64,000 nucleotides of DNA from Acidobacteriota bacterium (GTDB lineage Bacteria; Acidobacteriota; Thermoanaerobaculia; Gp7-AA8), in NCBI GenBank assembly GCA_021325515.1, contig JAJPHC010000057.1, forward strand, positions 1-64,000. Reading direction: 5' to 3'. Shown one piece after another: positions 5,548 through 30,452 of the stretch (positions are counted from its first letter, which is position 1; the number at the start of each line of letters is the position of its first letter). A program made the translations under genes and the position numbers. The notes beneath the pieces were generated by a model that saw only the letters and a list, made by a program, of their open reading frames with translations, did not search any database and was not told where the DNA came from.

Positions 5548-5623
5548 GCGGGCGTAGCTCAGTTGGTAGAGTAGGAGCTTCCCAAGCTCGGTGTCAGCGG
5601 TTCGCATCGCTCGCGCACTCCCG
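5548..5623 (+). tRNA. tRNA-Gly(CCC)-like gene with damaged 3' part (attachment site)
   Basis: The 5' half is canonical: acceptor GCGGGCG, D arm GCTCAGTTGGTAGAGT, and anticodon stem-loop GAGC-TTCCCAA-GCTC, giving anticodon CCC (Gly). The variable loop and start of the T arm (GTGTCAGCGGTTCG) also fit. After that the sequence departs from a tRNA: the T loop is TTCGCAT with no A58, the stem does not close at full length, and the 3' acceptor does not pair at the expected place. A 7-bp acceptor partner CGCTCGC exists but sits about five bases too early. Excisionase-like and integrase genes follow immediately, so this is most likely the left attachment site of the island. Whether it still yields a functional tRNA is doubtful. 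Confidence 0.5.
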
Positions 5624-5782: not shown

Positions 5783-5977
5783 ATGGAGAAACGGATCTCA
5801 TCAGCTCGCGCCGCGAAGCTCATCGGCATCAAGACGCAGACGCTGGCGAAGTGGCGAGGCCAGGGGCGAGGTCCCGGCGGATGGCTTCGCGTCTCTGCCA
5901 CATACGTGACCTACTCGGAAGCGGAGGTAATGCGGTTCCTTGCCGAGTGCGCTACGAAGGGAACCAAGACCTCGTAA
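5783..5977 (+). CDS. Excisionase-like helix-turn-helix protein
   Basis: A 64-residue protein with the layout of HTH_17/excisionase (Xis, MerR-like) DNA-binding domains: SSARAAKLIGIKTQTLAKW is the helix-turn-helix, followed by a wing GPGGWLRVSATYVTYSEAEV. The ATG at 5783 follows GGGAGG at good spacing. It sits between the tRNA-like attachment site and the integrase gene, 13 bases before the integrase ATG, the usual place for a recombination directionality factor. By analogy it would bind near the attachment site and bias the integrase towards excision. It might instead act only as a repressor of the integrase gene. Confidence 0.75.
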   Translation: MEKRISSARAAKLIGIKTQTLAKWRGQGRGPGGWLRVSATYVTYSEAEVMRFLAECATKGTKTS

Positions 5978-5990: not shown

Positions 5991-7166
5991 ATGAAGCAGC
6001 TTCCAGGTTTCAAGTATGAAGCGCGGAAGAAGAGAGTCATTCTCGACGGCTTTGTTCGTGGTACAGATGGGAAAGTACGCCGGCAGCGCACGATCGACAA
6101 TGTCACGCGCGACGAAGCCCTGACGCTCTGGCGTGAATTTCGCGCAGATCTCGACAGCGGTCGCGCCGCCACTGGTCCTCTCACCTTGCGGCAGTTCATT
6201 CACGCGTTCCTCGCGATCATTGCGAAGAATCACGAGCCGAGCACGCGTGCGATGCAGAAGACGCTGATCGACAACCATTTGCTGCGGTACTTCGGAGACA
6301 CATTGCTCAAGGACATCACGAGCATTCGCGTTGTCGATTTCATGGCCGACATGCGCGAACGGAAGCTGTCGCCGAGCTACATCAACAACGCGGTGCGCTT
6401 GCTCAAGATGTTGCTTCGACAAGCCGTCGAGCGTGATGTGCTCGCGGACTACCCCATCAAGAAGAAAGTGCCGAAGGAGAAGGAGACGCCGCTGCGGCAG
6501 GAGCTCACGACGGCGGAGCGAGCCAGGTTCTTCGCGACGTTCAATGATGAACTTGGATTTCGCGAGCACGTCAACGCGAAGCGTGCGATGGGTCCCATTG
6601 AGCTGAGCGATGCTTTCACGACACCGCGTCGATTTGGTGGTGGCCTCCGTGGCGACAGTGAAGCCGCGGGAGCATGTTTCAAACGATTTCAGGAGCTACG
6701 CGAGTTTTTTGTAGTCGCAGTCGAAACAGGGCTTCGCAAGAGCGATCTCCGAAATCTCGTGTGGAGTCAGGTTGATCTCGCCGGAGGCTTCATCCGCGTC
6801 GTCATGCAGAAGACGAAGCTCGAGGCTGAGATTCCGATCTCGCGTGCGTGTCGCGAAGCGTTGCGAGTAGCGGAATCACGCAGTGGTTGCGAGACCTACG
6901 TCTTCCTCACCACGTCGGGCTGTCGGTACTCGATGACTCGGATTCGTCGCGTGTTCATCCTTGCGAAGAAACTGGCGGGAATCTCGCGCCGCCTGCGGCC
7001 CCATGATCTTCGGCATACGTTTGGGTGCCGCCTCGCGAGCAAGTCTGTGGGCCTGCAGATCATCGCGAAAGCTCTCGGTCATACGACGACGCGGATGGCG
7101 GAGAGATACGCGAGACCATCCGAAGAATCGATGCGGGAGATTGTGGCAGCGCTGGATTCCGAGTAG
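5991..7166 (+). CDS. Tyrosine recombinase / integrase
   Basis: A 391-residue phage-type integrase that would insert and excise the island at the adjacent tRNA. An N-terminal SAM-like core-binding domain (about 60-165: TLRQFIHAFLAII, SPSYINNAVRLLKMLLRQA) precedes the catalytic domain. The catalytic residues are visible: Arg in ETGLRKSDLRNL, Lys in the MQKTKLEAEI hairpin, HDLRHTF (His-x-x-Arg), LGHTTTRM and the nucleophile Tyr in AERYARP. A loop of about 40 residues (EHVNAKRAMGPIELSDAFTT onward) is inserted just before the first catalytic Arg. The ATG at 5991 has GAGGTG seven bases upstream. It is probably co-transcribed with the excisionase-like gene. Confidence 0.92.
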   Translation: MKQLPGFKYEARKKRVILDGFVRGTDGKVRRQRTIDNVTRDEALTLWREFRADLDSGRAATGPLTLRQFIHAFLAIIAKNHEPSTRAMQKTLIDNHLLRYFGDTLLKDITSIRVVDFMADMRERKLSPSYINNAVRLLKMLLRQAVERDVLADYPIKKKVPKEKETPLRQELTTAERARFFATFNDELGFREHVNAKRAMGPIELSDAFTTPRRFGGGLRGDSEAAGACFKRFQELREFFVVAVETGLRKSDLRNLVWSQVDLAGGFIRVVMQKTKLEAEIPISRACREALRVAESRSGCETYVFLTTSGCRYSMTRIRRVFILAKKLAGISRRLRPHDLRHTFGCRLASKSVGLQIIAKALGHTTTRMAERYARPSEESMREIVAALDSE

Positions 7167-7180: not shown

Positions 7181-8047
7181 TCACGGTTCGCCTGAGTATT
7201 TTGGCAGGCGCTTTTTCTTGAACAGGTTTTCCGCGACGCTGCCTCCAACGAACTTGCTATCCAATGTCAACAAGACCTCGATGTCGACAGCCGTGCCAAG
7301 AGTCATCGGCTGGTGTGTGGTCGTTGTGTTCGCGCTGAACTCTCCGACGATTACTCCTCGAACTCTTGGTTCTCCCTCGATTGAAAGGAGTGGCGCGCCA
7401 GACAACCCGGGAGGAGCGGGGAACGAAGTCTCATACCCAGGCGGAACCGCGGGCAACGCGTCGAGACCGCGCCGTGTGACGATGTTGCCGCGGAAGGAGC
7501 GAAGGATGCCAAGAGGTTGCGGCGGGTTCCCGGGTAGTAGTGTGAACCCGAAAGGGAATCCGCAGGCTGCGACATCCTGCAGGTAGTCCATTGGTTGAAA
7601 GCGGTAGAGGAAGGTCGGTGGGCTGGGTAAAGCAGGACATTTCATGATCGTGAGATCGACCGACGGAAATTGATCGGCGTCAACAACGACGCTTCCCTCC
7701 TGTCCAGGGGCCATGAAGTTACCGACAGCGACGTGCTTACCACTGGCGGCCGCGGCGGCGTACACGTGATGGGCCGTGATGAAGAGCGTCGATGCCAGCG
7801 CGAACGCTGTGCCATGAAACTCCGCTGTCGAGACATCGAACTTGCCGGTATGTGGATCGATCTGACCCGCGACCACGACGAAGAGATGTTCGTTTAGGCG
7901 TTGCGACGATTTCGTCGAAGGTTTCATCTGCGACCAGAGCCTACTCCCAATTTGTGTCGGTGGGTCGCGGTCGTTTTCACGACTGTTGGGCGAAACATCC
8001 ATTCCGGCAAATTTACGAGAACGGCGACCCTCCAGGAACTGCTGCAC
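7181..8047 (-). CDS. Trypsin-like serine protease
   Basis: A chymotrypsin-fold peptidase. The catalytic triad is readable: His in TLFITAHHVYAAA, Asp in FPSVDLTIMKCP and Ser in PPGLSGAPLLSIEGEP (GxSGxP). There is no signal peptide or membrane segment, so it is probably cytoplasmic. Start is uncertain: GTG at 8047 gives 288 residues, ATG at 8002 and 7927 are alternatives, and none has a strong ribosome binding site. The catalytic domain begins only after about residue 50, so all versions keep it. It is a single gene converging on the integrase and divergent from the 8143 operon. Intracellular trypsin-like proteases often serve as effectors in defence or stress systems; here no partner is obvious, so the role is unknown. 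Confidence 0.75.
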   Translation of the reverse strand: MQQFLEGRRSRKFAGMDVSPNSRENDRDPPTQIGSRLWSQMKPSTKSSQRLNEHLFVVVAGQIDPHTGKFDVSTAEFHGTAFALASTLFITAHHVYAAAAASGKHVAVGNFMAPGQEGSVVVDADQFPSVDLTIMKCPALPSPPTFLYRFQPMDYLQDVAACGFPFGFTLLPGNPPQPLGILRSFRGNIVTRRGLDALPAVPPGYETSFPAPPGLSGAPLLSIEGEPRVRGVIVGEFSANTTTTHQPMTLGTAVDIEVLLTLDSKFVGGSVAENLFKKKRLPKYSGEP

Positions 8048-8142: not shown

Positions 8143-8364
8143 ATGAAATTCAAAGCATCGATTGAGTCATCCAATCGCAGCTATGAGGTCGAGTTCGATC
8201 TCGACGATGAAGTCGCCGCGAAGGCGCGGCTCGCGCAGGCGCTGCAGGAAATCAGCAAGCGATTTGTCGCGCCGAATGAGAAGCCGTCGAAACCTCCGGT
8301 CCAGCGCGTGACAGCGCCTGCTGCCGAGACACCCGCACGCAAAGAGAACGAACATGCGAAGTGA
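8143..8364 (+). CDS. Small acidic/lysine-rich protein, first gene of transfer-like operon
   Basis: A 73-residue soluble protein. The N-terminal 45 residues look like a compact beta-beta-alpha unit (MKFKASIESSNRSYEVEFDL then a helix EVAAKARLAQALQEISKRF), followed by a Pro/Lys/Ala-rich tail. The ATG lies behind GACGGAGGAGCGA. The 3' end overlaps the next gene by 11 bases, so the two are co-translated. I do not recognise the family. The gene opens an eight-gene plus-strand run ending at 13661. Confidence 0.6.
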   Translation: MKFKASIESSNRSYEVEFDLDDEVAAKARLAQALQEISKRFVAPNEKPSKPPVQRVTAPAAETPARKENEHAK

Positions 8365-9148
8365 TCGGCGTCGTCACGCGATCGCGATCGTCGCTCTCGT
8401 TCTCGTCGTGATCCATTCGGCGAGCTGCGGCCGCGATACGGCCGCTCAGTTCGGGTTCGCGAACGACGAGAACCTGCCGGCGACGTTGACGGACGTGTTG
8501 TGCGACGCCGGTGCTGGATCTACTTGTACGGCACAGACGCTCGCCGTCACGCTCAATCACGTACTCATTGAAGCGGCATCACGTCCTGGCAGCATCGTGC
8601 GTCTCTGGTCGATGGGCTCGAACGTGGGCGAGACGGTCATCATTGGCAACGCCGTCAGCCCGATGAATCGAAAGCGCGGAAAGGCCTCGCGCAAACGGAT
8701 TCAGGATCACTTCGTCTCAGGGTCCACGTCCGCCCTGTTGAAGGCGATCCATCCATACCTGGTCATAGGTTGTCGTCGCCGCTCGCCGATCGCCGAGTCG
8801 ATCGCGAGAATCATCTGGGCAGCGCCGCGGACATCTACAAAGCGGGTGATCATCGTCATCAGCGACGCTCGCGAGGTCAGCACGTTCGGCGACTTCGAAT
8901 GCGGCGTTCTTCCCGCGCCGAACGCGTTCGTCGAGAAGTTGCACGCGGATCAAGTCCTCGCGCCCGGCTCTCTCTCGGGCATCGACGTCGAGTTTGTCTA
9001 CGTCTCGCTTGGCGCGGTCGATGGTGGCCGCTGTCAACCAACACTGGCCCGCGATGCCGCGGTCCGCAGTCTCTGGAAGGCGGCGGTCACGTCCGCCGGC
9101 GCGGCGTCATTCCATTACGAGACCGCGGATGCCGCGGCCTCTAAGTGA
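8354..9148 (+). CDS. Putative lipoprotein with VWA-like domain
   Basis: A 264-residue protein. Residues 1-25 form a lipoprotein signal (basic RSDRRRH, hydrophobic core, lipobox SASC). The mature region has the strand pattern of a von Willebrand factor A domain: SIVRLWSMGS, the helix SPIAESIARIIWAA, the strand KRVIIVISDARE and a late VEFVYVSLG. The MIDAS metal site is degenerate: no clear DxSxS, though SPI and SDARE sit where the Thr and Asp loops would be. It would be anchored to a membrane facing the periplasm. The start overlaps the preceding gene and the next gene begins 20 bases downstream. The VWA assignment is moderate; the periplasmic location is firmer. Confidence 0.6.
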   Translation: MRSDRRRHAIAIVALVLVVIHSASCGRDTAAQFGFANDENLPATLTDVLCDAGAGSTCTAQTLAVTLNHVLIEAASRPGSIVRLWSMGSNVGETVIIGNAVSPMNRKRGKASRKRIQDHFVSGSTSALLKAIHPYLVIGCRRRSPIAESIARIIWAAPRTSTKRVIIVISDAREVSTFGDFECGVLPAPNAFVEKLHADQVLAPGSLSGIDVEFVYVSLGAVDGGRCQPTLARDAAVRSLWKAAVTSAGAASFHYETADAAASK

Positions 9149-9168
9149 CACCAAGAAGGGAGGCGCAA

Positions 9169-9981
9169 ATGGCAGTTTTCAATGAATCGCAGATCAACAC
9201 ACTTGCACACCACGATGCGATGCGCGGGGTCTATCAGCCGGAAGAGCGGATTGACTCGATCCTCGGGCCGGAGCCGGTCTTTGATCCGGTCAATCACACC
9301 GAACATGCGAAGCACGTCCGCGCCATCAACCAGCGTCACGTACTCGCCGAGATGCGTGAGCACGCGAAGGGCAAGTGGGAATCGGCAAGGGCCAAGGCGA
9401 GCGAGCCGGTTGTGTGGCTCATCACCAAAGGACTCCTCGGGTTTGTCGTCGAAGCGCTCGCCGGCATCCTGACGATGTATTCAGCCGGCGTTCCGTTCCC
9501 CGAAGATTTCTTGTTCGGGCTCGCACTCGCCGGTCTCGTATTCGCCCTCGTCAAATTCACACGCGAGGGGCGAGGAGTGGTCAGGTATGCAGCGCTTGGT
9601 GCACTGATCGTCGTCGCCATCGTGATCACCGCAGTTCGCCTGGACGAGGTCGGAGTGGCCGAAGGGGCGTCGCCGATCGTCGGGTTCGCGCTGCCGGTGC
9701 TGCTTCTGCTGGGGACATTCGGAATTGCGCTTATCGCGGAGCCCGCGATCCGCAAACTCGGACAGATCTACCCCGAGTGGAAGAAAGCGTACGAAGCGTC
9801 GACGGATCTCGCCCGCGCGGAAACGGCTGACAAAGAAGCGCAGAAGTTTCTCGATGGCCTTTCGCGCGATCGCGAGCAATGGAAGGACGTACGCATCAAG
9901 AGCATCGCGCTCTACAAGAGCACGCATCGGACGGTGACAGCCGAGATCAACGGGACCAATCCGGCGAACGGCCCCGCTTGA
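9169..9981 (+). CDS. Inner-membrane protein with ~4 TM segments, unknown
   Basis: A 270-residue protein. A soluble N-terminal segment of about 80 residues is followed by four hydrophobic stretches: WLITKGLLGFVVEALAGIL, FLFGLALAGLVFALV, YAALGALIVVAIVITAV and FALPVLLLLGTFGIALIA. A charged, helical C-terminal region of about 70 residues follows. The ATG at 9169 follows GGGAGGCGCAA, an excellent ribosome binding site. It lies between the VWA-like lipoprotein and the 10092 gene in the same operon as the DNA-pump ATPase, so it may be part of a membrane complex for DNA transfer. No family recognised. Confidence 0.6.
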   Translation: MAVFNESQINTLAHHDAMRGVYQPEERIDSILGPEPVFDPVNHTEHAKHVRAINQRHVLAEMREHAKGKWESARAKASEPVVWLITKGLLGFVVEALAGILTMYSAGVPFPEDFLFGLALAGLVFALVKFTREGRGVVRYAALGALIVVAIVITAVRLDEVGVAEGASPIVGFALPVLLLLGTFGIALIAEPAIRKLGQIYPEWKKAYEASTDLARAETADKEAQKFLDGLSRDREQWKDVRIKSIALYKSTHRTVTAEINGTNPANGPA

Positions 9982-10091
9982 GACAAAGACGAGGTGTAGC
10001 CGGTCAGCAACGACATGAACGCCTCAAACATCAACGCGAACACCAACGACTTGTTCAACTTCAACATCTGCATTCCTGAGAGGAGAACCCA

Positions 10092-11063
10092 ATGACCGAG
10101 CAACTCGCACTCATCTCACGCGAACCGAAGCCGATCACGATCATCGGCACAAACACCGGCGCGAAATTCAACCTCCCGCACCTCAAGGCGTACAACGACG
10201 ATACGCAGCGCTTCGCCCTTGTTCCGACGGCGATCGATGCATTTCCGGGTCGTGCATTGGCGTTTTCTGCCAACGCTCGCGCACACAATCTTCACGTAGT
10301 CCCGGTCGAAGCCGATGCACGCGAGATCGATCCGAGCACTTTCGAACCCATCGTGCTCATTCATGTCGACAATCCGCTGACCATTGCTCAATTGCTCGCT
10401 CGAATCGAGGAGCGCTATGTTCTTTTCCTGATCTTCATTCGCCTGACGAATGGACGTCTTCTGACCGCATCCGGCGCATTCGAGCCTGACGATGTTGCGG
10501 GTCCACGCCAAAGTGCACTTCTCCTTTCTGCTTTCGGCTACGACACCCTCGCGGCCGGCTCGGAGCGTGTGTTCGGGGCTCTGGGGATGCCGGAGCACCG
10601 CGCGATCGAACCGGTGTTTCGTCATCAATTCATCAAGAGGACCAAGAAGAACATGACGAAGATGTTGGCGAACCTCCCGCTGGAGGAGCCGGGCCTTCGT
10701 CTGAGCTTCGACGGCGAACACGCGGTACGTACGGTCGTCCGTGACGCGCGTGAAGCCGGCTTCGCGAACCCCGCCGCATTGGCGTACGACTTCTTCGACC
10801 ATCCGCCGTTCGCCGTGGAGAAGGGCGAGGACGTGGTGATCGCCGAGGTCGGCGCGGAAGGCGAGATCCGCTTGCACACGGTTCGGCAGCGCGCCACGGA
10901 CGGCGTGATCACCGTCGGCGGGATCGCGGTGGTCGACCCGCGCGGGATCCCTCCCTACGAAACGGAGCGCTGGGAGTTCGCACGTCAGCAGCAACGGCAG
11001 CTCCTCGACCGGGCCGCGGGCGAAGCCATCACTCGGCGCCGCCCCGTCATGGCGTCCGATTAG
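10092..11063 (+). CDS. Unknown 323-aa soluble protein in transfer-like operon
   Basis: The ATG at 10092 follows GAGAGGAGAACCCA. The N-terminal half has alternating strands and helices (ITIIGTNTGAKFNLPHL, then HNLHVVPVEADAR, PIVLIHVDNP), faintly like a Rossmann or ThiF/E1-type nucleotide-binding fold, but the glycine loop is not canonical. The C-terminal half is charged and includes KEDVVIAEVGAEGEIRL-like beta strands, with a basic end (ITRRRPVMASD). There is no signal peptide or membrane segment. A strong hairpin follows ten bases after the stop, then the next gene. I cannot assign a function. Confidence 0.55.
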   Translation: MTEQLALISREPKPITIIGTNTGAKFNLPHLKAYNDDTQRFALVPTAIDAFPGRALAFSANARAHNLHVVPVEADAREIDPSTFEPIVLIHVDNPLTIAQLLARIEERYVLFLIFIRLTNGRLLTASGAFEPDDVAGPRQSALLLSAFGYDTLAAGSERVFGALGMPEHRAIEPVFRHQFIKRTKKNMTKMLANLPLEEPGLRLSFDGEHAVRTVVRDAREAGFANPAALAYDFFDHPPFAVEKGEDVVIAEVGAEGEIRLHTVRQRATDGVITVGGIAVVDPRGIPPYETERWEFARQQQRQLLDRAAGEAITRRRPVMASD

Positions 11064-11073
11064 ATCGAGGTTC

Positions 11074-11096
11074 CGGGGCCGCGCAATGCGGCCCCG
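11074..11096 (+). terminator. Intrinsic-terminator-like hairpin inside the operon
   Basis: CGGGGCCGC, loop GCAAT, GCGGCCCCG: a perfect 9-bp GC stem followed by CTTTCG. It lies between the stop at 11063 and the ribosome binding site of the 11145 gene. It could attenuate transcription between the membrane genes and the ATPase. Confidence 0.6.
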
Positions 11097-11144
11097 CTTT
11101 CGAATCGCCGATGGCGGCATCGGCGACTCGGAAACGGAGGGAAC

Positions 11145-11525
11145 ATGATCGAGATCCTCATCACATCGCTCTTCGCGCTCGGCTGCTTCATCGTCGTGGT
11201 TTCCCTCCCGTTGCAAGCGGCTGGATCTTCTCTGCGCCGTCTTGGTATCACGCTCCTCTTGATTCCCCTCGCCGGGTCCTTCTTCTTCGGCGCGTTGAGA
11301 GAAGCCATACACCAACAACACGTCGATGTTGGCTTCGATACGAGCAGAGTCATTGTCTTGATCATCTTGAGCATCGTCGCCTACTTGATCTTGGCGTTCA
11401 GGGCGAGAGCAACGAAGCCGAAGGGCGTTGAGAAGATCAGGCAGAAGCGTGTCGTCGGACCCGGGCGCCGCAGCGATGACATTCTCTCCAAGATCCGCGC
11501 GCAGTTCTCGGACCTCGATGACTAA
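11145..11525 (+). CDS. Small membrane protein upstream of DNA-pump ATPase
   Basis: A 126-residue protein with two or three membrane helices (ILITSLFALGCFIVVVSLPL, ITLLLIPLAGSFFFGAL, VIVLIILSIVAYLILAF) and a basic cytoplasmic tail (RARATKPKGVEKIRQKR). The ribosome binding site is AACGGAGGGAAC. The last codons overlap the ATPase start by 8 bases (ATGACTAA). TraD/VirD4-type pumps are usually anchored by N-terminal helices; here the ATPase has none, so this protein may supply the membrane anchor as a separate subunit. That role is inference from position and size. Confidence 0.65.
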   Translation: MIEILITSLFALGCFIVVVSLPLQAAGSSLRRLGITLLLIPLAGSFFFGALREAIHQQHVDVGFDTSRVIVLIILSIVAYLILAFRARATKPKGVEKIRQKRVVGPGRRSDDILSKIRAQFSDLDD

Positions 11526-13152
11526 GTCCTCCAACACTGACTGGTTGTCGATCCTCCTTGGCATCCTGGCCACGGTTAAGGAATCGATCGCTCGGTGGAT
11601 CAACCCACGCGACTCCGCCAAGACAGCCGCGATCATGCAAGTGAGAAAGGATCTCGGAATCGACGGCTCGAGGAACGAACGGGCCGCGACGATCGAGAAG
11701 CTGGGTGGTCCAGGAGCACAACCGCTATTCACATTGCCGAGTGGCGAAGTGTTGTGCGTCCGACAGGCCATCATCGCGGACGGCAACCACGCCTTCATCT
11801 GCGGAAAGACCGGCTCGGGCAAGACCTTCTTCACGATCTACACGATCATCGACAACAACATCGAAGAACTCCTGGCTGGGCGACGCCGATGCATCGTCAT
11901 TGATCCGAAGCAAGAAACAGCTGTCTTATTGATGCGCCGCCTTGCCGCGAAGTTCATTCGCGGAGACTCGCATCTGCGTGATGAACTTCGTCAGGGTGTT
12001 CATGCGATTGTGTTCCGCCGCGGGTTCGTGACGCCCATCTCACCATTCGTTCCGAACGAGCACGTCAGCAACGCCTACCTCGCGGAGTTCCTGACCGACA
12101 CGATGGTCCGCACCAGCCGGACTCCCGTCAGCATCACCGTCGCACAACTCCTCTACTACGTGATCTGGCTGTGCATCGAGCTAGGGATCCCGCTCAGCGT
12201 TCGGTTTATCAGGAAGTTCCTCCGCAATGCCGGCTATCGTCAGAAGATCCTTGCGCGTATCGAGAATCGCGACCTCCGTCTCTTCTTTGAAACGCTCAGC
12301 CAGACGGTCGCCAAGCAGACGATCGACGCGGTGATCCGGCGCTTCGTCTCCGAGGTGAAGTTTCCAGAGAACCTTGCTGCGCTTGGGCTACCCGCCGAGG
12401 AGATCAAGAAACTGGGCGTGCCAACGGACGCGCCACTGACTGTCGCCGACTTCGGCGCGTCCAACATCCTGCCGCCGTCGATCGGCCTGATGCACGCCGA
12501 GATTTTCGCAACGCGAACTCTCCTTGCGGCGAAGGGGCGCGATAAGCGGGTGCCGTTGCAGATCGTCCTCGAAGAATTGCCCCGCCTTCTCGACCGCTCG
12601 CCGCAACTGACAGCTCTTGTCCTCGACAGCCTTCAGACTCTCCGCGCGAGCCGCACCAGCATCACGATGTGTGCGCAACGACTCGACTCTCTCGCCAGGG
12701 AAGTCGTTCGCGACATCGAGCTAAACACATCGTGGATAACTGCCTTTCAGTCGCGGGCGGACGTGGGCGATCTTCTCGTGCCATACCTCAGCCCAGTCCC
12801 CGGAGTGTCAGAGGCGGAACGCCGCCGCGAGTTCCTCCGCGAGCTGGGGGCTCTGCCACCGCAGCACGCCTATTTCTACGTCAATGGCCATGCGCCCTTC
12901 CGCGTCCGTTCCATCGACATGATTCCACCCGCGCGAATCGCGGGCATTCCCGACGACGAGTTGGACGACGTGTTCTTTCGCGAGATCACGCCGCGGTCAA
13001 CGATTGCCATCGACCGCGCCCTGGCCATCAACGCCGCATGGGAGGACGAGTTCGTCGGGGATGACGAGAGCGATTCGGTGAAGGGCAAATCTGAGGCCCG
13101 CGGGCTTGACGATTTGCGCTCTTTCCTTGAAGGAGACGACGAAGATGCATGA
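11518..13152 (+). CDS. TraD/TraG/VirD4-like DNA-pump ATPase
   Basis: A 544-residue P-loop ATPase of the VirD4/TraD/FtsK-HerA group that pumps DNA through membranes. Walker A is CGKTGSGKTFF (about 100-110), followed by RRCIVIDPKQET. The Walker B/catalytic segment is PLQIVLEELPRLL, with LRASRTSITMCAQRLDSL as the following sensor-like strand. There are no N-terminal membrane helices, unlike most TraD proteins; the preceding gene could provide them. The start ATG overlaps that gene by 8 bases and the stop overlaps the next gene. No VirB4, VirB6 or pilin genes are visible nearby, so either transfer relies on a host machine or this is a different kind of DNA-handling complex. The C-terminal tail (IAGIPDDELDDVFFREI) recurs in the next gene. 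Confidence 0.75.
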   Translation: MTKSSNTDWLSILLGILATVKESIARWINPRDSAKTAAIMQVRKDLGIDGSRNERAATIEKLGGPGAQPLFTLPSGEVLCVRQAIIADGNHAFICGKTGSGKTFFTIYTIIDNNIEELLAGRRRCIVIDPKQETAVLLMRRLAAKFIRGDSHLRDELRQGVHAIVFRRGFVTPISPFVPNEHVSNAYLAEFLTDTMVRTSRTPVSITVAQLLYYVIWLCIELGIPLSVRFIRKFLRNAGYRQKILARIENRDLRLFFETLSQTVAKQTIDAVIRRFVSEVKFPENLAALGLPAEEIKKLGVPTDAPLTVADFGASNILPPSIGLMHAEIFATRTLLAAKGRDKRVPLQIVLEELPRLLDRSPQLTALVLDSLQTLRASRTSITMCAQRLDSLAREVVRDIELNTSWITAFQSRADVGDLLVPYLSPVPGVSEAERRREFLRELGALPPQHAYFYVNGHAPFRVRSIDMIPPARIAGIPDDELDDVFFREITPRSTIAIDRALAINAAWEDEFVGDDESDSVKGKSEARGLDDLRSFLEGDDEDA

Positions 13153-13378
13153 CCTCATCCGCGACATCCTCGCGCTTCCAGTCCGGTTGGTCATCTGGAT
13201 CTTTCAATGCAGCCGTCGTCGGGCACGACGCGTGGCCGGCATTCCAGACGAGACGTTGGACGTGTTCTTTCGCGAGATTGCGCATCGGTCAACGGCTACT
13301 GTCGACCGCGCCGAAGCCCTCATCGCCGAATGGGAAAAGCGCGTCTGCGATGACGAAAGGAACCACGACGATGCGTGA
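13145..13378 (+). CDS. Small membrane-associated protein repeating the ATPase tail
   Basis: A 77-residue protein starting inside the ATPase stop (ATGCATGA). Residues 1-25 are an amphipathic/hydrophobic segment (MHDLIRDILALPVRLVIWIF). Residues 29-70 (VAGIPDETLDVFFREIAHRS onward) are clearly homologous to the C-terminal tail of the preceding ATPase (IAGIPDDELDDVFFREITPR). The stop overlaps the next gene. The protein thus joins a membrane-binding segment to a copy of the ATPase tail. It could be an adaptor competing with or docking the pump, but no function is established. Confidence 0.6.
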   Translation: MHDLIRDILALPVRLVIWIFQCSRRRARRVAGIPDETLDVFFREIAHRSTATVDRAEALIAEWEKRVCDDERNHDDA

Positions 13379-13661
13379 CATCGTCTTCACGATCGTCCTC
13401 GAGATCCTCGCGCTCCCAGTGCGGCTGATCGTCTGGATGTTTCGATCCATCCGTCGATTGACGAGACGCGACGATGAGCCCATGTCGGTTACTTGCGAGG
13501 TGTGCGGAACCACAGTCTCGACCGTTGGACTCTCGGCGTGTGAGTGTGGGCGTGTCGAGGCAGGCTCGCATCTTCACTGCTCCTGCGGCGCTTCGTACTC
13601 GTCCATTTCGTGCAGCACGTGCGGCGTCACGATCGACGTCAAGAAGGATCGTCAGTCATGA
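13371..13661 (+). CDS. Membrane segment plus Cys-rich zinc-ribbon protein
   Basis: A 96-residue protein overlapping the preceding stop. Its N-terminus (IVLEILALPVRLIVWMFRSI) is a copy of the hydrophobic segment of the preceding protein (RDILALPVRLVIWIFQ). The rest is a Cys-rich module: CEVCG, ACECG, HCSCG and CSTCG, eight or more cysteines in four pairs, which would bind two zinc ions. So the three genes 11518-13661 share parts: ATPase tail in the second, membrane segment in the second and third. Last gene of the operon. Role unknown; the zinc ribbon suggests nucleic-acid or protein binding at the membrane. Confidence 0.6.
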   Translation: MRDIVFTIVLEILALPVRLIVWMFRSIRRLTRRDDEPMSVTCEVCGTTVSTVGLSACECGRVEAGSHLHCSCGASYSSISCSTCGVTIDVKKDRQS

Positions 13662-13742
13662 ATTCAATCTTGAGCGTACGAAAGGAGGCTTGCATCGTCC
13701 CCGCCGGGAACCCTCATCAGACTATTTGTAACCACAATCTGT

Positions 13743-14039
13743 ATGACTGTCACTCGTGTGATTCCCAAGATGAACGGAGAGTCGACCCTCACCATCGATC
13801 GCGCCGAATGGAATCCGGTGGAGCGGATCGTCGAGCGGCTCAGCGGCCGCGTCATGATCCACGACCACAGGAGCGCGGGCGCATTCCACGGGCGACACTT
13901 CGTTCCCGTTCCTCACTACCTTCTGGAGCTCGAGGCGGACCCGGACCAGATCGATCAGATCATCGAGAAGATCGATCCGCTCGTCAACGAGATCATCGTA
14001 AGGAACATCCACACCAACACAGTCCCGGCGCAGGCCTGA
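13743..14039 (+). CDS. Ribosomal protein bS6-like small protein
   Basis: A 98-residue protein. From about residue 28 the pattern matches bacterial ribosomal protein S6: ERIVERLSGRVMIHDHRSAG (the 'GGkI....wG.R' strand), then FVPVPHYLLELEADPDQIDQ (the 'Y.i...k.AhYvl..ve....' strand and helix) and IIVRNIHTN (the 'VlRhmvvr' last strand). S6 normally binds S18 and rRNA in the 30S subunit. Here the N-terminal strand is atypical and the gene is a single copy in a mobile island without S18. No good ribosome binding site is visible. It may be a domesticated S6-like RNA- or protein-binding fold; the similarity was judged by eye only. Confidence 0.45.
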   Translation: MTVTRVIPKMNGESTLTIDRAEWNPVERIVERLSGRVMIHDHRSAGAFHGRHFVPVPHYLLELEADPDQIDQIIEKIDPLVNEIIVRNIHTNTVPAQA

Positions 14040-14294
14040 CCGCAACGCCTTCTTCGGCTCCGCTCAAGTTGTTCTCGACCTCGCCGGTCGGGTTCGGCGC
14101 TTCGACCGTCGGAACCGTTCGCGTCTTGCATTGCAGGTGCGATCGCTTCCGAGAAACGGAACGAACGTCAGCCCGCCGGCGAGGATCGGGCGCAACGTCC
14201 AAATTAGAGATCACACGGAAAGGAGTCTTGGGTCGAGCAGAGCGAGAGGCCATCTCATCATCAGAAAACTCCGAACCACCTAACCACCGCCCCC

Positions 14295-14438
14295 ATGAAG
14301 CGACGCCGAAACCGCCGTTCAGATGCCCCCCTCTTTACGTGGGTCGACGTGTTACTGCTTCCGGCTGCCGGCATAGCAATCGCCGAGATCCTGATGCATG
14401 TCGCGTCGCAATTGATCTCACACCATTCGTTTCCCTGA
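14295..14438 (+). CDS. Possible 47-aa single-span membrane protein
   Basis: The open frame MKRRRNRRSDAPLFTWVDVL continues through a hydrophobic helix (LLPAAGIAIAEILMHVA) to a TGA at 14436. The strongly basic start and one membrane helix are typical of small membrane proteins. There is no clear Shine-Dalgarno before the ATG, and the codon pattern cannot be judged over 47 codons. If it is rejected, 14040-14686 is a 650-bp region without genes. That region also holds two diverged copies of a segment like TTGTTCTCGRCCTCGCCGG (about 14067 and 14464). Confidence 0.35.
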   Translation: MKRRRNRRSDAPLFTWVDVLLLPAAGIAIAEILMHVASQLISHHSFP

Positions 14439-14686
14439 ATCCGTCGCCTGTTCGCTCGCCCATGTTGTTCTCGGCCTCGCCGGCCGACCTCGCGAGAAGT
14501 TGCCCAGCCGCCAGTCGCTTCGCATTTGTGACGACTCGCTGGATGGAATCACGACAATCGCGCCGCTCGATACGGCGAGGCACGAGACGATCCTCGGCAC
14601 AACCCCCGAAATCAACTCTTGCCTGGAAGGAGGGCCACGGCTGCACGACGCACGCGCGCGTCAACCCATTTCCAACTTTCACCGCC

Positions 14687-15007
14687 ATGCGCAACACAGT
14701 TCACACCGAGGTTCTCGTGCCGACGCACGACAACTCCGGCTATCCGTTCTCCGATGTCGCCATCGAGCGATTCGAGCAATTCCTTCTCGATCTCGCGGGC
14801 GGTTTCAGCCGCCGCGGCGAGGTCGATGGGTTCTGGCGTTCTCCCGATGGCGTCACGATGCGCGATCACTCCCGCTCTTACGTCGTCACGCTCGATGAGC
14901 GCAACGCCGAGGAGGGGGCATCTCAGATCGACGAGTACATCCAGCGTCACTTCAATCAGCTCGCGAGTTTCGTTGAGCTCACTCCTACACGCGCGACGGT
15001 GTTCTGA
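14687..15007 (+). CDS. Small hypothetical protein coupled to the relaxation gene
   Basis: A 106-residue soluble protein (MRNTVHTEVLVPTHDNSGYP...). The pattern VLVPTHDNSGYPFSDVAIERFEQFLLDLAGG (given in pieces: a first strand, then an aromatic turn and a helix) followed by GGFSRRGEVDGFW and YVVTLDE resembles short ferredoxin-like proteins found beside plasmid and phage genes, often of unknown function. The stop overlaps the ATG of the replication-relaxation gene (TGATG), so the two are translated together. There may be a regulatory or partner role in the same process. A longer in-frame extension upstream is low-complexity Arg-rich and is not believed. Confidence 0.55.
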   Translation: MRNTVHTEVLVPTHDNSGYPFSDVAIERFEQFLLDLAGGFSRRGEVDGFWRSPDGVTMRDHSRSYVVTLDERNAEEGASQIDEYIQRHFNQLASFVELTPTRATVF

Positions 15008-15957
15008 TGCAGCACGATCCCGACAACCAGGCAGGTCCCGATCACGACCCGCTCTGTCCGAACGACCCTTGCACTGCTGATGACCAAGCGTCACAACAGG
15101 AGCCGGGACTTGTCGGAACGACAGAGCGGGTCGGCGGCCGGCGAATCTCGACACGGCACGACCCTCGCGATGCCGGAATTCTCTCCGAGCGCGATCTCGA
15201 CGCACTGCTCTTCGTTGGCCTTATGCGGATCTGCGCGCAGTACCAACTCCGCGCGAGAATCTTCGACGGGCTGTCCGAGGTCATTGTTTCGCGCTGCGTC
15301 CGCCGGCTTCTACGCCGCGAGCTCATCGCAGTGCATCGTTGGAACGCGGTGGGAATCAACTTGCTCAAGCTGACGAAGCGCGGCTACGACACTCTGCTCG
15401 AGCGAGGCTTGGCCAAAGAGAAGGAACTCTACTTGCCTGAGAAATGGACGGCGCCGCGCGACCTCGCCCATACGCTTTGGATTGTCGACGTGGCGGTGAC
15501 CTTCCTGATGTCGTCGAACAAACACGTCGTTCTTCCGTGCTGGGCACTCCGCCGCAAATTCGGAAGCGCGGGCATGGTTGTGCCGGACATCCTCGTCGCG
15601 CAAGTCGGGCCGAGCGGGGAGTGGACGCGAATACTCGCGATCGAAGTCGACCTCGGGACTGAGCGGCTCGGTCGCATTTTTCTTCCTAAGATCGACAAGC
15701 TGCGAACCCTCACCCGATCCTGGGCGGGCGAGGCAGCGGCGGCGATCACGATCCTCACACGCGGGCAGCGGCGGATTGAAGCGATCAAGGCGAGGGTGAC
15801 CGCGCACTCGGTACCGGTCATGATCGTCGAGCTTCCTCGGGAATCAGGACGTGCGGGACTCGGAGCGCTCCAGGAGCTCCTTCAAGGCAAAGACAATCGA
15901 AGTGATAGACGTCTTAATGCCCCTGCGCCCACAAGCGGAGCGTTCTCCGAAACATAG
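15007..15957 (+). CDS. Replication-relaxation family protein
   Basis: A 316-residue protein of the replication-relaxation (Replic_Relax) family found on plasmids and integrative elements. A winged-helix region (about 58-125: LSERDLDALLFVGLMRI..., LRRRELIAVHRW, LTKRGYDTLLE) is followed by an alpha/beta domain with VPDILVAQ and ILAIEVDLGTERLGR then IDKLRTL. The D...ExD...K spacing is what a PD-(D/E)XK nuclease-like fold would show. Family members are thought to act in replication or DNA processing of mobile elements, but the mechanism is poorly known. The N-terminal 40 residues are disordered and acidic. A distant paralogue is encoded at 47919-48968. Confidence 0.7.
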   Translation: MQHDPDNQAGPDHDPLCPNDPCTADDQASQQEPGLVGTTERVGGRRISTRHDPRDAGILSERDLDALLFVGLMRICAQYQLRARIFDGLSEVIVSRCVRRLLRRELIAVHRWNAVGINLLKLTKRGYDTLLERGLAKEKELYLPEKWTAPRDLAHTLWIVDVAVTFLMSSNKHVVLPCWALRRKFGSAGMVVPDILVAQVGPSGEWTRILAIEVDLGTERLGRIFLPKIDKLRTLTRSWAGEAAAAITILTRGQRRIEAIKARVTAHSVPVMIVELPRESGRAGLGALQELLQGKDNRSDRRLNAPAPTSGAFSET

Positions 15958-16812: not shown

Positions 16813-18639
16813 ATGAAGTCGCCCATGTGGTCAGACCGTGAAACGAGCGAGGATTGCCTCGGTTTTTCGAGCTATGTCGACAGTTTGGCGGACGTGTGCC
16901 TTGAGGCGGAGATCGCGCCTCTCACCGTCGGCATTTTCGGTTCCTGGGGCAGCGGCAAGACAAGCCTCATGCAGATGCTCCGAGACGAGATGGCTGCGCG
17001 TGCGAAGCGCGCTGAGGCTGCCCATGAACCGAGGATCATCACGCTCTGGTTCAACGCGTGGCGCTACGAAGGAAAGGAAGAGGTCCAGTCCGCGCTCATT
17101 CACGCGATCTTGCGCGAGCTCGAAAAGGACACATCGCTCCTGGACGACATGAAGGACACGTTCGCGCGGCTCAAGAAGGGCGCGAGTGTCATCAAGCTCG
17201 CGAAGACCATCACCAAGAGCGCGATTACCCTGACTCCCAATTTCAGCGAGCTACTCGATGCGTTCAGCGACGAGGCCAAAGCAGTCTCGGACACGATGGA
17301 GACCTTCGAAGCCGACTTCGCGAGCCTCTTCAAAGCTGGAAAGGTCGCGAGGATCATCGTCTTCATCGACGACTTGGATCGGTGTAGCAGCGAGAAAGTG
17401 GTCGAAGCCTTCGAGACAATCAAGCTGTTTCTGAACACGCCCGAGACGACGTTCGTCATCGGCGCGGACGCTGCGAAGATCGAGGAGGCGATCAGCTCGG
17501 TGTACCGCGTGGAGCGCGACCGCAAAAGCGTGTACTCTCGCGACTACCTCGAAAAAATTGTCCAGCTGCCCTTCTCCATCCCTGAGCAGCGCCGCCGCGA
17601 CGTCGAAGGCTATGTCGCGATGCTCGTCCTCCGTGGCTACACGACCGCGGGCGGGTGGAAAGCGCTCCTCGCCGCGCGCCGCGAGATCCTCGATGCAGGG
17701 TCGGATACGTGCGCGGCGTTCACCGAATGGATCGGGAAGAGCGCGGCGATGCTTCGAACGGACACCGCTGCCCCCGCAACGGCGCATCTGACGCGAGCAC
17801 TTGCAACAACCGATCTGCTCGTTCGGGGACTGCGTGGGAATCCGCGTCAGATCAAGCGCTTCCTCAATATTCTGGAGCTCCGCGGCCGCATCGCGGAGGC
17901 TAACAATCTACCGATTTCCCCAGAACTCCTCACGAAGATGACGGCCCTGGAGTACACATGGCCGGAGTTCTTCGCACAGATGGTGGAGACCGCGGCGCCT
18001 GATGGTACGTCGGAGCTTCTCGCAGAAGTAACCAAGTACGCCGACCGTAGCCAGACTCCTTCCGAGGACTCGCCGATGCTATCCGCCGCGCTGGAGGAGC
18101 CAGGACTCGCCGAATTCATCGCGGCTGCCCCATCGATCGCGGCGACGACGGATCTGTCGCCGTACCTCTTCCTCGCGCAGACATCACTCGACCCCAAGCG
18201 CCGGCCTGCGCTGCTCCCGCACGACGAAGTCGCGCGCGACCTCGCCGAGAGGATTGCGGCCGATGATCCGATCCGCGCACGCGCCGCTGCGAAGCAGGCG
18301 CCGAAGCAAGAAGCCGGCGTGGTGTCCGCTATCGTGCGGCTCGTTTGCGCGAAGATCACGACGATGGACGGTGACAAGCAGAAACGCGCGCGCGTGCATG
18401 CTCTGCACGGCCTCGAAGAGATCTGCAAGACAACTCCCGAGCACTACCGCACCGTCGTGGAGACGCTGCGCACGGCCGACGTCCAAGACGCGGGCTTCGC
18501 GATGAGCGCGACGCGGGTCCTTCAGGCCGCGCGCGCCAGCGGTATCGCGGATGCCGAGACCGTGCTCTCGAGCCAGTACGAGCCACGATCGTTCATCAAA
18601 TCCGTGCCGCGGAAGACGCCGTCGCGCGGGACGAACTGA
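16813..18639 (+). CDS. qatA: QatA: KAP-family P-loop ATPase of Qat anti-phage system
   Basis: A 608-residue KAP-family NTPase. Walker A is GSWGSGKTS (43-51), followed by the family motif WFNAWRYEG (79-87), Walker B IIVFIDDLDRC (181-191), and RGNPRQIKRFLN further on, the KAP sensor region. KAP ATPases commonly work at membranes; there is no clear inserted membrane hairpin here, though the segment IKLAKTITKSAITL is moderately hydrophobic. The next three genes encode a QatB-like protein, a QueC-like protein and a TatD-like nuclease, in the order of the experimentally described QatABCD phage-defence operon, so this is QatA with good confidence. The substrate and trigger of Qat systems are not known to me. 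The stop is 2 bases before the qatB ATG. Confidence 0.88.
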   Translation: MKSPMWSDRETSEDCLGFSSYVDSLADVCLEAEIAPLTVGIFGSWGSGKTSLMQMLRDEMAARAKRAEAAHEPRIITLWFNAWRYEGKEEVQSALIHAILRELEKDTSLLDDMKDTFARLKKGASVIKLAKTITKSAITLTPNFSELLDAFSDEAKAVSDTMETFEADFASLFKAGKVARIIVFIDDLDRCSSEKVVEAFETIKLFLNTPETTFVIGADAAKIEEAISSVYRVERDRKSVYSRDYLEKIVQLPFSIPEQRRRDVEGYVAMLVLRGYTTAGGWKALLAARREILDAGSDTCAAFTEWIGKSAAMLRTDTAAPATAHLTRALATTDLLVRGLRGNPRQIKRFLNILELRGRIAEANNLPISPELLTKMTALEYTWPEFFAQMVETAAPDGTSELLAEVTKYADRSQTPSEDSPMLSAALEEPGLAEFIAAAPSIAATTDLSPYLFLAQTSLDPKRRPALLPHDEVARDLAERIAADDPIRARAAAKQAPKQEAGVVSAIVRLVCAKITTMDGDKQKRARVHALHGLEEICKTTPEHYRTVVETLRTADVQDAGFAMSATRVLQAARASGIADAETVLSSQYEPRSFIKSVPRKTPSRGTN

Positions 18640-18641
18640 CC

Positions 18642-19421
18642 ATGGGAACATCCAAGAGCTACGGGACGCCGACTGGGGGAGAGTGGACCAGCGTGAAGGG
18701 TCAGATCACCCGCGTGCTTGGCGGGGGGAACACTTCCGCGTCGCCAGGGACGATCGTCGGTGGCACCGCCTCGGCTTCCGGCGGGCTCTCATTCTCGGGC
18801 GGCGGTGGAGGAGGCGGTGGTGGTGGCGGATCGAGCGCGGGCCGAGGTCGCATCGCCGGTGTGGTCAGCGGCATTGGCGGCTTCGGCGGGGCGGTCCGTG
18901 ATGGAGGCCTCGACGGCGCACTCGCTGGCCTCGGTCTCGACAGTCTGCGTGGCCGCCCGGCCGCTGAGGTGGTGTCGGCCATTAGCGAATATCTCGCCCG
19001 CGACGCGGAAGGGCTTGACCGAGAATTCCTCCAGGCCGCGCTCGAGGAGGCGCTACTCGAAGCGGCGAGCTTGGGTGATGAACTTGGGTATGACGACTTC
19101 GCCGAAGGGTTGGGAGAGTTCGTCGCTGCCGAAGGGCCTGAGGGGCTCGTCGAGCTGTTCTTGGAGAACTTCGTGTTCGACACGCTCTGGGGCCGCATCG
19201 AGCAGCATGCCGTCGACAAGAGCGCGGATGCAGGCGCGTTGGAGAGTCTGATGACCGCAGTAAAGGGCGAGTGCGAGGCGCAGGTGCGCGAACAGATCGA
19301 GGACACCCGAGCCAGCGGCGCCTTCGGCGCGCTGGACTGGTTCGGACGCGCAGGACGCGATCTCGGCTTGCGCATCGTCACGGAGTTGGAATCGCGCCTC
19401 TCGGCACTTCGCGAAACCTGA
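18642..19421 (+). CDS. qatB: QatB-like protein of Qat anti-phage system
   Basis: A 259-residue protein with no enzymatic motif. The N-terminal region (MGTSKSYGTPTGGEWTSVKG) is followed by a very glycine-rich linker (a run of 11 glycines near residue 55) and a helical C-terminal domain (AISEYLARDAEGLDREFLQA, YDDFAEGLGEF, LFLENFVFDTLWGRIEQ). The 'GTSKSY.GP..G..W' start is what I would expect of QatB, which accompanies the KAP ATPase. Its role in defence is unknown. It lies 2 bases after qatA and 8 bases before qatC. Identification rests on position and this N-terminal pattern. Confidence 0.8.
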   Translation: MGTSKSYGTPTGGEWTSVKGQITRVLGGGNTSASPGTIVGGTASASGGLSFSGGGGGGGGGGGSSAGRGRIAGVVSGIGGFGGAVRDGGLDGALAGLGLDSLRGRPAAEVVSAISEYLARDAEGLDREFLQAALEEALLEAASLGDELGYDDFAEGLGEFVAAEGPEGLVELFLENFVFDTLWGRIEQHAVDKSADAGALESLMTAVKGECEAQVREQIEDTRASGAFGALDWFGRAGRDLGLRIVTELESRLSALRET

Positions 19422-19429
19422 AGACACCT

Positions 19430-20803
19430 ATGCATTTCGTTCGCTACACCGGTGAGCCGCGAGACGAAGACGTTGCATACGCGCGGGCGCTCAACGACCC
19501 GGATACACACGTGCTCGACCCGTGGTCGACCGCAGATGAAAACATCGAAGCGCACTTCATGTTGGGATCTCGCCTCGCCACGGTGGATCTCCCACCGCAC
19601 GCGCGCGATCTCTTCGATCTCGCGGCGATGGTGTACATCGCGGACGAGATCGTGCCGCGCGATTCGGCCGATGACCGGTGGACGCGTGCACTATCGTTCA
19701 CGGTACCTGTCGCAGACCTGCATCGGTGGATTGCTGCCGAGAAGGTGCTCAACGAATGCTTGTCGTTTCTTTCCGGCGACATGTATGCGTTCGAATGGAT
19801 TGCGCGGCCGGCCAACGTTCCTGGAGGGACAATCCATCGCAACAATCTCGGTGGCCAGTACGACGCTGTCTGCCTCTTCTCCGGAGGTGTCGACTCACTG
19901 CTCGGTGCTGTCGCACTTCTCGATGCTGGAAAGCGTGTGCTCCTAGTCGGTCACTACGCGGACGGCGTGACGTCCAGCGCGCAGCGGGATCTCTATGCGC
20001 TCCTGGAACGGAAGTATCCCGGACGTGCAACGCTACTTCAGGCCAATGTCGAAAGGAGCCGGAAGAGGAGCCAACGCTTTCAGCTTCCGGACAAGGTGGA
20101 GATCACGCACCGATCACGGTCGTTTCTGTTTCTCGCGGCCGGCACGGTGGCCGCCCTTGCGACGGGGACGACGCGCCTCTATATCCCTGAAAACGGACTC
20201 ATCGCGCTGAACGCGCCGCTCGGCCCTTCGCGGCGAGGGACGCTCAGCACGCGCACGGCCCACCCGCGGTACATCGATCTGTTCAACCAGCTCTTGGCAG
20301 CACTGGGCTTCGTCGTGCACGTGGAGAATCCCTTCTGGGATCAGAGCAAGACCGACATGCTTCGTTCCGTGACAGACCCGGAGATCCTGACGGCACTCCT
20401 GCGCAGTGTGTCCTGCGCACACGCGGGGTACCTGCGGTGGGAAGCCGAAAAGGGCGTGACCCACTGCGGATACTGCGTCCCGTGCCTCTACCGGCGGGTC
20501 GGATTTCTCGCCGCCGGCGTTGACGAACCCGGCTATCTAAGCAACGTCTTCACGGAACTCCCACAAATGAGCGAGGACACGGCGCGTGATTTCCGCCTCC
20601 TGGTGCGCTTCGCGCTCGCGATCCTGCATGGCCGCAACGTCGACGTGATCGCCGCCGTGCTCCGGCATGGCGGATTCAGCGGCGGCGCGTCAGGGGATGC
20701 ATACACGGCGCGGGGAGAAATGTTGAAGCGCTGGGCGTCGTCGTTCGTGGACCTGGCGCGCGCTCGCTCGAACCAGGCGACGCGGCGCATCGTCGGCCTC
20801 TAA
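19430..20803 (+). CDS. qatC: QatC: QueC-like PP-loop ATPase
   Basis: A 457-residue protein. The C-terminal two-thirds is a QueC-like (7-cyano-7-deazaguanine synthase) PP-loop domain: SGGVDSL (151-157) binds ATP, and the zinc-binding cysteines are visible at C329 and in HCGYCVPC (346, 349, 352). An N-terminal region of about 140 residues is typical of QatC rather than of housekeeping QueC. In QatABCD it is required for defence; deazaguanine-type chemistry on a nucleic acid or protein is a plausible but unproven role. The ATG at 19430 lies 8 bases after the qatB stop; an upstream in-frame extension would overlap qatB and is not believed. Confidence 0.88.
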   Translation: MHFVRYTGEPRDEDVAYARALNDPDTHVLDPWSTADENIEAHFMLGSRLATVDLPPHARDLFDLAAMVYIADEIVPRDSADDRWTRALSFTVPVADLHRWIAAEKVLNECLSFLSGDMYAFEWIARPANVPGGTIHRNNLGGQYDAVCLFSGGVDSLLGAVALLDAGKRVLLVGHYADGVTSSAQRDLYALLERKYPGRATLLQANVERSRKRSQRFQLPDKVEITHRSRSFLFLAAGTVAALATGTTRLYIPENGLIALNAPLGPSRRGTLSTRTAHPRYIDLFNQLLAALGFVVHVENPFWDQSKTDMLRSVTDPEILTALLRSVSCAHAGYLRWEAEKGVTHCGYCVPCLYRRVGFLAAGVDEPGYLSNVFTELPQMSEDTARDFRLLVRFALAILHGRNVDVIAAVLRHGGFSGGASGDAYTARGEMLKRWASSFVDLARARSNQATRRIVGL

Positions 20804-20809
20804 CATTCC

Positions 20810-21797: not shown

Positions 21798-22442
21798 TTA
21801 GATCGCTCGTCTTTCCTTCAACGAAACGAAGCAACCGGCGGCGAGGATCAAGTGATCGAGTACTTGAACACCGAGGACGTTCCCTGCCTGGACGAGCTTG
21901 TGCGTGAACAGCAGGTCGTCGCCAGACGGCTCGGGATCGCCGGAGGGATGGTTGTGGTAGACGATCAGGCTCGCGGCGTGCTCTTCGAGCGCGAAGCGGA
22001 GGACATCACGCGTCGAGACAGTTGCGAAGTTCAGAGTGCCTACGTAGATCTCGCGTTCACGGATGATTCGATGCTTCGAGTCGAGATAGACAGCGCCGAG
22101 ATGCTCTTGAACCTCGTGGGCGTAGCGCGCCATGAGGGGTCGTGCGACCATCGAGCCATCGGTGATCGGCTGGCGTTCGTCCACGATTGACGCGAGCCGG
22201 CGGCCTAGCTCGAGGCTCGCCAGGACGCGCGCGGCCTGACGCCGAGTCACAGGTGAGCTTGTGCTGGTCCATGGTGTGCGGACGAACGCCGGCAGACCGT
22301 CTCGAACGAGCAGTCGTGATTGCGCAACGTCGCGGTCAACGAGGAGCGATACCAGCTCCGCGTCGGACAGCGACTCGACTCCTGCGCGGTATAGGCGATC
22401 CAGCGGCTTCTCGCCACCCATCGTTTGAGCATCGTCGCTCAT
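21798..22442 (-). CDS. radC: RadC-like JAMM/MPN protein
   Basis: A 214-residue RadC-family protein. The C-terminal JAMM metal-binding core is intact: HNHPSGDPEPSGDD (163-176) with the upstream ALEEHAASLIV strand. The N-terminal helix-hairpin-helix part is short. RadC-like proteins are common on mobile elements and phages near anti-restriction genes; their activity is unresolved and a direct repair role has been questioned. Last gene of the minus-strand operon from 27744; the start overlaps the preceding 64-residue gene by 4 bases (ATGA). Confidence 0.88.
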   Translation of the reverse strand: MSDDAQTMGGEKPLDRLYRAGVESLSDAELVSLLVDRDVAQSRLLVRDGLPAFVRTPWTSTSSPVTRRQAARVLASLELGRRLASIVDERQPITDGSMVARPLMARYAHEVQEHLGAVYLDSKHRIIREREIYVGTLNFATVSTRDVLRFALEEHAASLIVYHNHPSGDPEPSGDDLLFTHKLVQAGNVLGVQVLDHLILAAGCFVSLKERRAI

Positions 22443-30449: not shown

Positions 30450-30452
30450 ATC

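Follow-up and report, generated by a model that had tools for sequence, protein, structure and literature searches.

What does a compact run of genes do for a bacterium if it encodes a predicted DNA-pumping ATPase together with membrane proteins, and no recognised secretion channel? Such a run lies in a 64,000-nt stretch (the window, meaning the whole of the DNA examined) of contig JAJPHC010000057.1 of an Acidobacteriota bacterium of the class Thermoanaerobaculia (assembly GCA_021325515.1), where a first-pass annotation had proposed that eight genes at 8143-13661 could be an undescribed minimal system, a DNA pump without a relaxase. The operon proves to be a real one, and it is both conserved and mobile, yet that annotation missed a relaxase-like gene and the mobile setting of the locus. 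The interpretation that we favour, with moderate confidence, is that 8143-15957 serves a tRNA-integrated mobile island as its mobilisation module, responsible for DNA processing and coupling, and that the DNA of the island is pumped through a channel belonging to another element. The islands probably represent a new family of integrative, defence-carrying, mobilisable elements that combine a MOBC-type protein with a coupling ATPase in split form.

The eight genes are consecutive on the + strand, overlap by 4-11 nt or are separated by gaps of 81-110 nt, and have coding-like third-position GC and codon composition, in agreement with a compact operon; gene models are from a custom gene-calling script, and start positions are approximate. 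The block runs on beyond 13661 on the same strand with g9, g10, and a gene matching PF13814, all of which travel with it in relatives, so the earlier statement that there is no classical relaxase is true just within 8143-13661. The genes of the block (module A) are as follows.

8143-8364, + strand: g1, 73 aa, head of the operon
8354-9148, + strand: g2, 264 aa, predicted exported protein or lipoprotein, accessory
9145-9981, + strand: g3, polytopic membrane protein with start ATG 9169 or GTG 9145, accessory
10092-11063, + strand: g4, 323 aa, soluble, accessory
11145-11525, + strand: g5, small protein (~130 aa) with two or three transmembrane (TM) segments, proposed membrane anchor of ATPase A
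11518-13152, + strand: ATPase A, 544 aa, superfamily of HerA, FtsK, and type IV coupling proteins (T4CPs), without a TM segment of its own, proposed coupling ATPase
13145-13378, + strand: g7, fusion of a duplicated g8 N terminus with a duplicated ATPase tail (residues 472-517), in that order
13371-13661, + strand: g8, TM segment and Cys-pair zinc ribbon (~100 aa), membrane-anchored, core
13743-14039, + strand: g9, 98 aa, frequent member
14687-15007, + strand: g10, 106 aa, frequent member, with a 1-nt overlap into the relaxase-like gene that follows
15007-15957, + strand: relaxase-like protein A, PF13814 (Replic_Relax), MOBC superfamily

These genes keep company elsewhere, so that a lack of co-occurrence, which the first-pass annotation had named as a refutation, is not what is seen. 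ATPase A is single-copy in its own genome and has homologues in 11 of 149 Thermoanaerobaculia genomes, a count that includes the window's own, and the 12 related loci from the 10 other genomes (two of the loci being contig ends) share the order g1 or a small protein in its place - (g2-g3-g4) - g5 - ATPase - g8 - (g9) - (g10) - PF13814. Homologues of g1 are present in L015 and L022, and a similar small gene occupies its position in L018-L021, L024, and L025. The g2-g3-g4 segment is present in L015, L016, and L017 and in L024 and L026 a divergent counterpart takes its position; it is missing from 7 of the 12 loci, two of which are contig ends, and is therefore not considered core. The small membrane protein g5 is kept in every sufficiently long locus except L021, where there is a small protein without detectable similarity to it; L015 lacks a recognised g8, and L020 has no PF13814 gene beside module A. 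A scan of GTDB with one genome per species finds ATPase A records exclusively in metagenome-assembled genomes of Acidobacteriota/Thermoanaerobaculia, and a phylum-wide sample of 396 genomes adds three weak matches with uninformative neighbourhoods. No ATPase A homologues were found in viral contigs or in plasmids, nor homologues of the relaxase-like protein in plasmids.

The polytopic and small membrane proteins described in the first-pass annotation are borne out, with four to five hydrophobic segments in g3 and two to three in g5, as are the zinc ribbon of g8 and the lack of membrane helices in the ATPase. The supposed VWA-like lipoprotein, g2, fares less well: it has no VWA match in Pfam and no PDB sequence match, its low-confidence model (predicted local distance difference test [pLDDT] 55) has no PDB fold match, and a lipobox is clear only in the L015 relative (VLLAGC). 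A sequence-based fold search with g4 matched nothing. The tail-copy protein, g7, is indeed a copy of ATPase residues 472-517, and the DNA carries the trace of the event (window 13127-13378) as an 89-nt repeat with 78% identity, its copies spaced 292 nt apart, as for a tandem duplication of ~290 nt. Nothing corresponding to g7 was detected at any of the 12 related loci, and it thus looks like the product of a partial tandem duplication and not a part of the system.

ATPase A has the Walker A/B RecA-like nucleotide-binding domain expected of a T4CP, and its motifs are conserved in the relatives (Walker A G96xxGxGK, DPK129-131, and EE352-353). A profile of the family matches HerA (YjgR, E 2.8e-8), FtsK, and VirB4 among PDB structures; in Pfam there are only sub-threshold P-loop matches. 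The low-confidence AlphaFold model has 25 Foldseek matches in the PDB at E<=1e-3, mostly to the coupling protein TrwB, and contains an all-helical insertion (residues 185-297) between strands 161-165 and 307-311. The insertion may correspond to the all-alpha domain that T4CPs such as TrwB carry within the nucleotide-binding domain. ATPase A is thus assigned to the HerA/FtsK/T4CP superfamily and probably works like a coupling protein, and it is not called VirD4-family because it was tested against the family models and for a TM segment of its own and showed neither. An N-terminal TM segment is lacking, and g5 is encoded directly upstream, overlapping the ATPase gene by 8 nt.

The product of 15007-15957 is relaxase-like and a predicted nicking enzyme. 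It matches PF13814 above the curated cut-off (33.3 bits, E 6.4e-8; cut-off 25.3 bits), and residues PD193-194, E213xD215, and E219 are invariant across 11 homologues. PF13814 is named as the MobC relaxase superfamily (PMC5357655), and the MOBC relaxases belong to the PD-(D/E)XK superfamily (PMC12857230), the signature of which the PF13814 proteins here carry, with D instead of K as the third residue and a mostly conserved K nearby. Because PF13814 relaxase-type genes are present, the idea of an undescribed minimal system is not supported as stated, and the overall plan is that of known mobilisable elements (plasmid CloDF13 and class 8 integrative and mobilisable elements [IMEs] of streptococci; PMC5357655, PMC5704250, PMC7431656). 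A role in DNA transfer or DNA handling, as first proposed, is still the best reading.

Mobility is most clearly seen in relatives. An element in genome G013 is bounded by a perfect 48-bp direct repeat of the 3' end of tRNA-Ala(CGC) (C19:746-793 and 51250-51297), and an element in G009 by a 56-nt, 95% repeat of the 3' end of tRNA-Pro(GGG) (C22:33394-33448 and 81542-81597), each enclosing the block. The tRNA-Pro site is empty in sister genomes G007 and G008, and their homology with G009 stops beside the tRNA. These att direct repeats of G013 and G009, together with an integrase gene of the islands' own, give the att-bounded insertion that characterises an integrative element; an integrase gene adjoins the block in L015, L024, and L026 as well as in the window. 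The ends of the window island are marked by the following features.

5548-5621, + strand: tRNA-Gly(CCC)-derived sequence (Rfam RF00005, 34.1 bits; gathering threshold 29 bits), probable integration site directly before the integrase
5783-5977, + strand: small helix-turn-helix (HTH) protein, by its position a putative excisionase
5991-7166, + strand: tyrosine integrase (PF00589, E 2.9e-29)
54475-54530, - strand: tRNA-Gly(CCC)-like 3'-half fragment, att-like, at the right end of the island and inverted relative to 5548

The first ~44 nt of 5548-5621 are identical to an intact tRNA-Gly located elsewhere on the same contig (G000:C13:121510-121585) and the 3' half is diverged; ARAGORN does not call a tRNA here. 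Apart from 5548-5621, the fragment at 54475-54530 gives the window's best match to the 3' half of tRNA-Gly(CCC). A direct-repeat att site was looked for in the window element and not found, and with its ends inverted, a single simple insertion is shown for the relatives only; the window island may reflect accretion of two elements or an inversion. Further 3' fragments of tRNA-Gly(CCC) lie along the contig (G000:C13:122955-122999 and 126342-126373), which suggests repeated integration at this tRNA. Synteny of the left flank with sister genomes stops at 2832, and the window's own empty site is accordingly not demonstrated. A trypsin-like peptidase gene (7181-7927, - strand; PF13365, E 2.8e-8) lies between the integrase and the operon.

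At the end of the island opposite to module A is a second module, B (47919-54218), organized around another relaxase-like protein and ATPase.

47919-48968, - strand: relaxase-like protein B (PF13814, 48.5 bits, E 1.4e-12)
49172-50645, + strand: two DNA-binding proteins (HTH_3; Crp-like HTH)
50645-52081, + strand: ATPase B, T4CP/HerA family (PF02534, 26.6 bits, over the cut-off of 20.1 bits)
52091-53212, + strand: tyrosine recombinase (PF00589, E 1.1e-22)
53274-54218, - strand: tyrosine recombinase (PF00589, E 5.3e-26)

Modules A and B are on one contig in five genomes (six loci), with their ATPases about 4 to 39 kb apart, and the module B copies of the PF13814 protein have the same residues, as PD...EHD. 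At two loci, L143 (G014:C252) and L144 (G011:C619), a module-A-type relaxase-like gene is convergent with a different ATPase of HerA/T4CP type; these pairings look like partner exchange, as would be expected of exchangeable mobilisation modules. In G017 (C14:223866-225224), an ATPase B homologue with 65% identity has two in-frame TGA stops and marks a decayed element.

The combination of a PF13814 protein and an ATPase could also serve intracellular maintenance, replicating, segregating, or resolving the excised circle without any transfer. FtsK and HerA ATPases act in segregation and repair, and the phage profile phrog_9381, 'replication initiation by nicking', matches protein B (E 3.5e-5); moreover, the name of PF13814 refers to replication and relaxation of plasmids (PMC3756968), and phages carry Replic_Relax with FtsK-like genes (PMC9658697). 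This explanation is unlikely, however, as g5, a conserved membrane protein, and g8, a zinc ribbon anchored in the membrane, point to an envelope-located ATPase, each element has two separate PF13814-ATPase modules, and the conserved block contains no recognisable partition or Rep gene.

A channel for the DNA is neither encoded in the block nor detected in the host genome. VirB4, the ATPase of named type IV secretion systems (T4SSs; VirB/mating-pair formation), is absent from the genome and from all 11 carriers in searches with PF03135 and PF19044, other pore genes not having been searched for one by one; the first-pass annotation was right on this point, and a match to a named secretion system was looked for without success. 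VirB4 is present in 9 of the 149 genomes, and with 11 carriers only about 0.7 joint occurrences of VirB4 and element are expected by chance, so its absence from the carriers does not point to avoidance and shows only that an element can reside in a genome without a helper.

A self-sufficient minimal DNA exporter has to be weighed at this point, in which g5, with g2-g4 and g8 where present, would form a conduit and ATPase A would push island DNA out, followed by uptake in the recipient or direct contact. The elements are mobile and yet none of the carriers has VirB4, and a HerA/FtsK-type ATPase is encoded beside polytopic and small 2/3-TM proteins. Precedents without a T4SS include the transjugation of ICEth1/TdtA in Thermus (PMC5365140), and the archaeal Ced/Ted systems of few proteins, Ced consisting of CedA (6-7 TM segments), two 2-TM proteins, and CedB (PMC9905601); ATPase B has weak CedB/CedD profile matches. 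With g2-g4 missing from more than half of the loci, however, the membrane parts reduce to the ~130-aa TM protein and the ~100-aa zinc ribbon, a core inventory that seems insufficient to bridge a diderm envelope; neither a pilin nor a channel of the outer membrane is recognised, and a relaxase-type gene suits helper-dependent mobilisation. We regard such an exporter as rather unlikely, and the broader proposition, that a pilus-less and VirB4-less self-contained export apparatus (split ATPase, TM protein, zinc ribbon, and optional g2-g4) spreads defence islands through the Thermoanaerobaculia without a conjugative helper, as slightly more doubtful again.

Helper-dependent mobilisation, the favoured reading, has known counterparts. 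CloDF13, with the coupling protein MobB and the relaxase MobC, likewise has a PF13814/MOBC protein and a coupling-type ATPase encoded by the element itself, and it lacks a mating pore; unlike CloDF13, the islands here are chromosomally integrated, large, and defence-carrying, have two relaxase-ATPase modules each, and have an ATPase A without a TM domain and a separate TM protein instead. The TM domain of CloDF13 MobB is essential (PMC7431656), which would account for the retention of a separate TM gene beside the TM-less ATPase A. Streptococcal IMEs with VirD4 and MobC have been reported, and class 8 IMEs (PF13814/MobC, VirD4, and a serine integrase; PMC5357655) share with the islands an integrase, a PF13814 relaxase, their own coupling protein, and no T4SS, whereas the islands have a tyrosine integrase, an ATPase A below the VirD4 cut-offs, additional conserved membrane and zinc-ribbon proteins, and a length of 48-50 kb. 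Among mobilisable plasmids, those few that encode a VirD4 of their own have MobC as well (PMC5704250), and the known mobilisable elements equipped with a coupling ATPase of their own are of the MOBC type. In pIP501, a separate small 2-TM protein, TraI, is proposed as the anchor of the coupling ATPase TraJ (PMC12857230), an arrangement similar in plan to the one proposed here, although pIP501 has a complete T4SS of its own and its relaxase is of the MOBQ type.

Two further systems bear comparison. ICEth1 of Thermus thermophilus (TdtA/NurA; PMC5365140) is also tRNA-integrated, with restriction-modification (RM) cargo for defence, a hexameric HerA/FtsK-type ATPase, and no T4SS, but is 14.9 kb long and has the NurA nuclease as the partner, the position of the PF13814 protein here; the text consulted describes no TM or zinc-ribbon genes equivalent to those of the block. 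The Ced/Ted systems of Crenarchaea (PMC9905601) resemble the block in having few-gene membrane proteins and a HerA/VirB4-type ATPase, but are archaeal import systems homologous to VirB2/VirB6, and no such homology was found here.

Mobilisation would begin with excision of a circle by the integrase, and the PF13814 protein, with a winged HTH and a PD-(D/E)XK-type core, would then nick a transfer origin. The cytosolic ATPase A, held at the membrane by g5 and possibly g8, would dock the nicked DNA and pump it through a channel that another element provides. The coupling protein would thus be split over two genes, one for a soluble ATPase and one for the membrane protein, and g2-g4 may be optional envelope-side accessories.

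Several observations weigh against this account. The PF13814 match of protein A is of modest size, at 33 bits, and there is no iteron array or repeat resembling an origin of transfer (oriT) near the relaxase-like genes. ATPase A has no match to PF02534 or PF10412 up to E 1 and reaches no Pfam T4CP cut-off, and its structural model is poor (pLDDT 55). The tRNA-derived ends of the window island are inverted and not direct, and the VirB4 search found no resident helper channel in the 11 carriers.

Downstream of the block is the cargo. A complete Qat defence system, QatABCD (16813-21562, + strand), directly follows module A and consists of QatA (KAP ATPase), QatB, QatC (QueC-like), and QatD (TatD-like). 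Relatives have Hma (G013), BREX beside the block (G008), or a type I RM system (G144), and from island to island the modules stay constant while the defence genes between or next to them differ. Some defence systems include HerA ATPases, and the block could itself be antiphage cargo with a HerA-type ATPase, given the adjoining Qat, the defence genes of the relatives, and weak mad8/HerA matches. This is very improbable, though, as no PADLOC model scores convincingly and the block stays constant as the cargo changes, adjoins the integrase, and includes a relaxase-family protein. The mad8/HerA matches were the only ones to a named defence system, and no such identity is assigned.

Other parts of the window are also of note. 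A block at 21798-27744 (- strand) codes for RadC, a small HTH protein, and a 1139-aa methylase-SNF2 helicase fusion; it recurs as six to seven genes in the G013 element, has ZorD/DpdE-like helicase scores, and is possibly an uncharacterised defence or DNA-modification system. Further along the island are a Mu/IS21-like transposase (30411-31946, + strand), and two predicted exported proteins are encoded at 33021-35351 (- strand; carboxypeptidase-regulatory-like repeats and a GH18 domain) and 39113-46678 (+ strand; about 2521 aa).

These findings give the defence-carrying islands of the Thermoanaerobaculia a probable transfer module, with two relaxase-ATPase pairs per island, and bear on how genomic islands without a T4SS move. 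Since att sites and an empty site are known and VirB4 is missing from all carriers, the need for a helper channel is directly testable.

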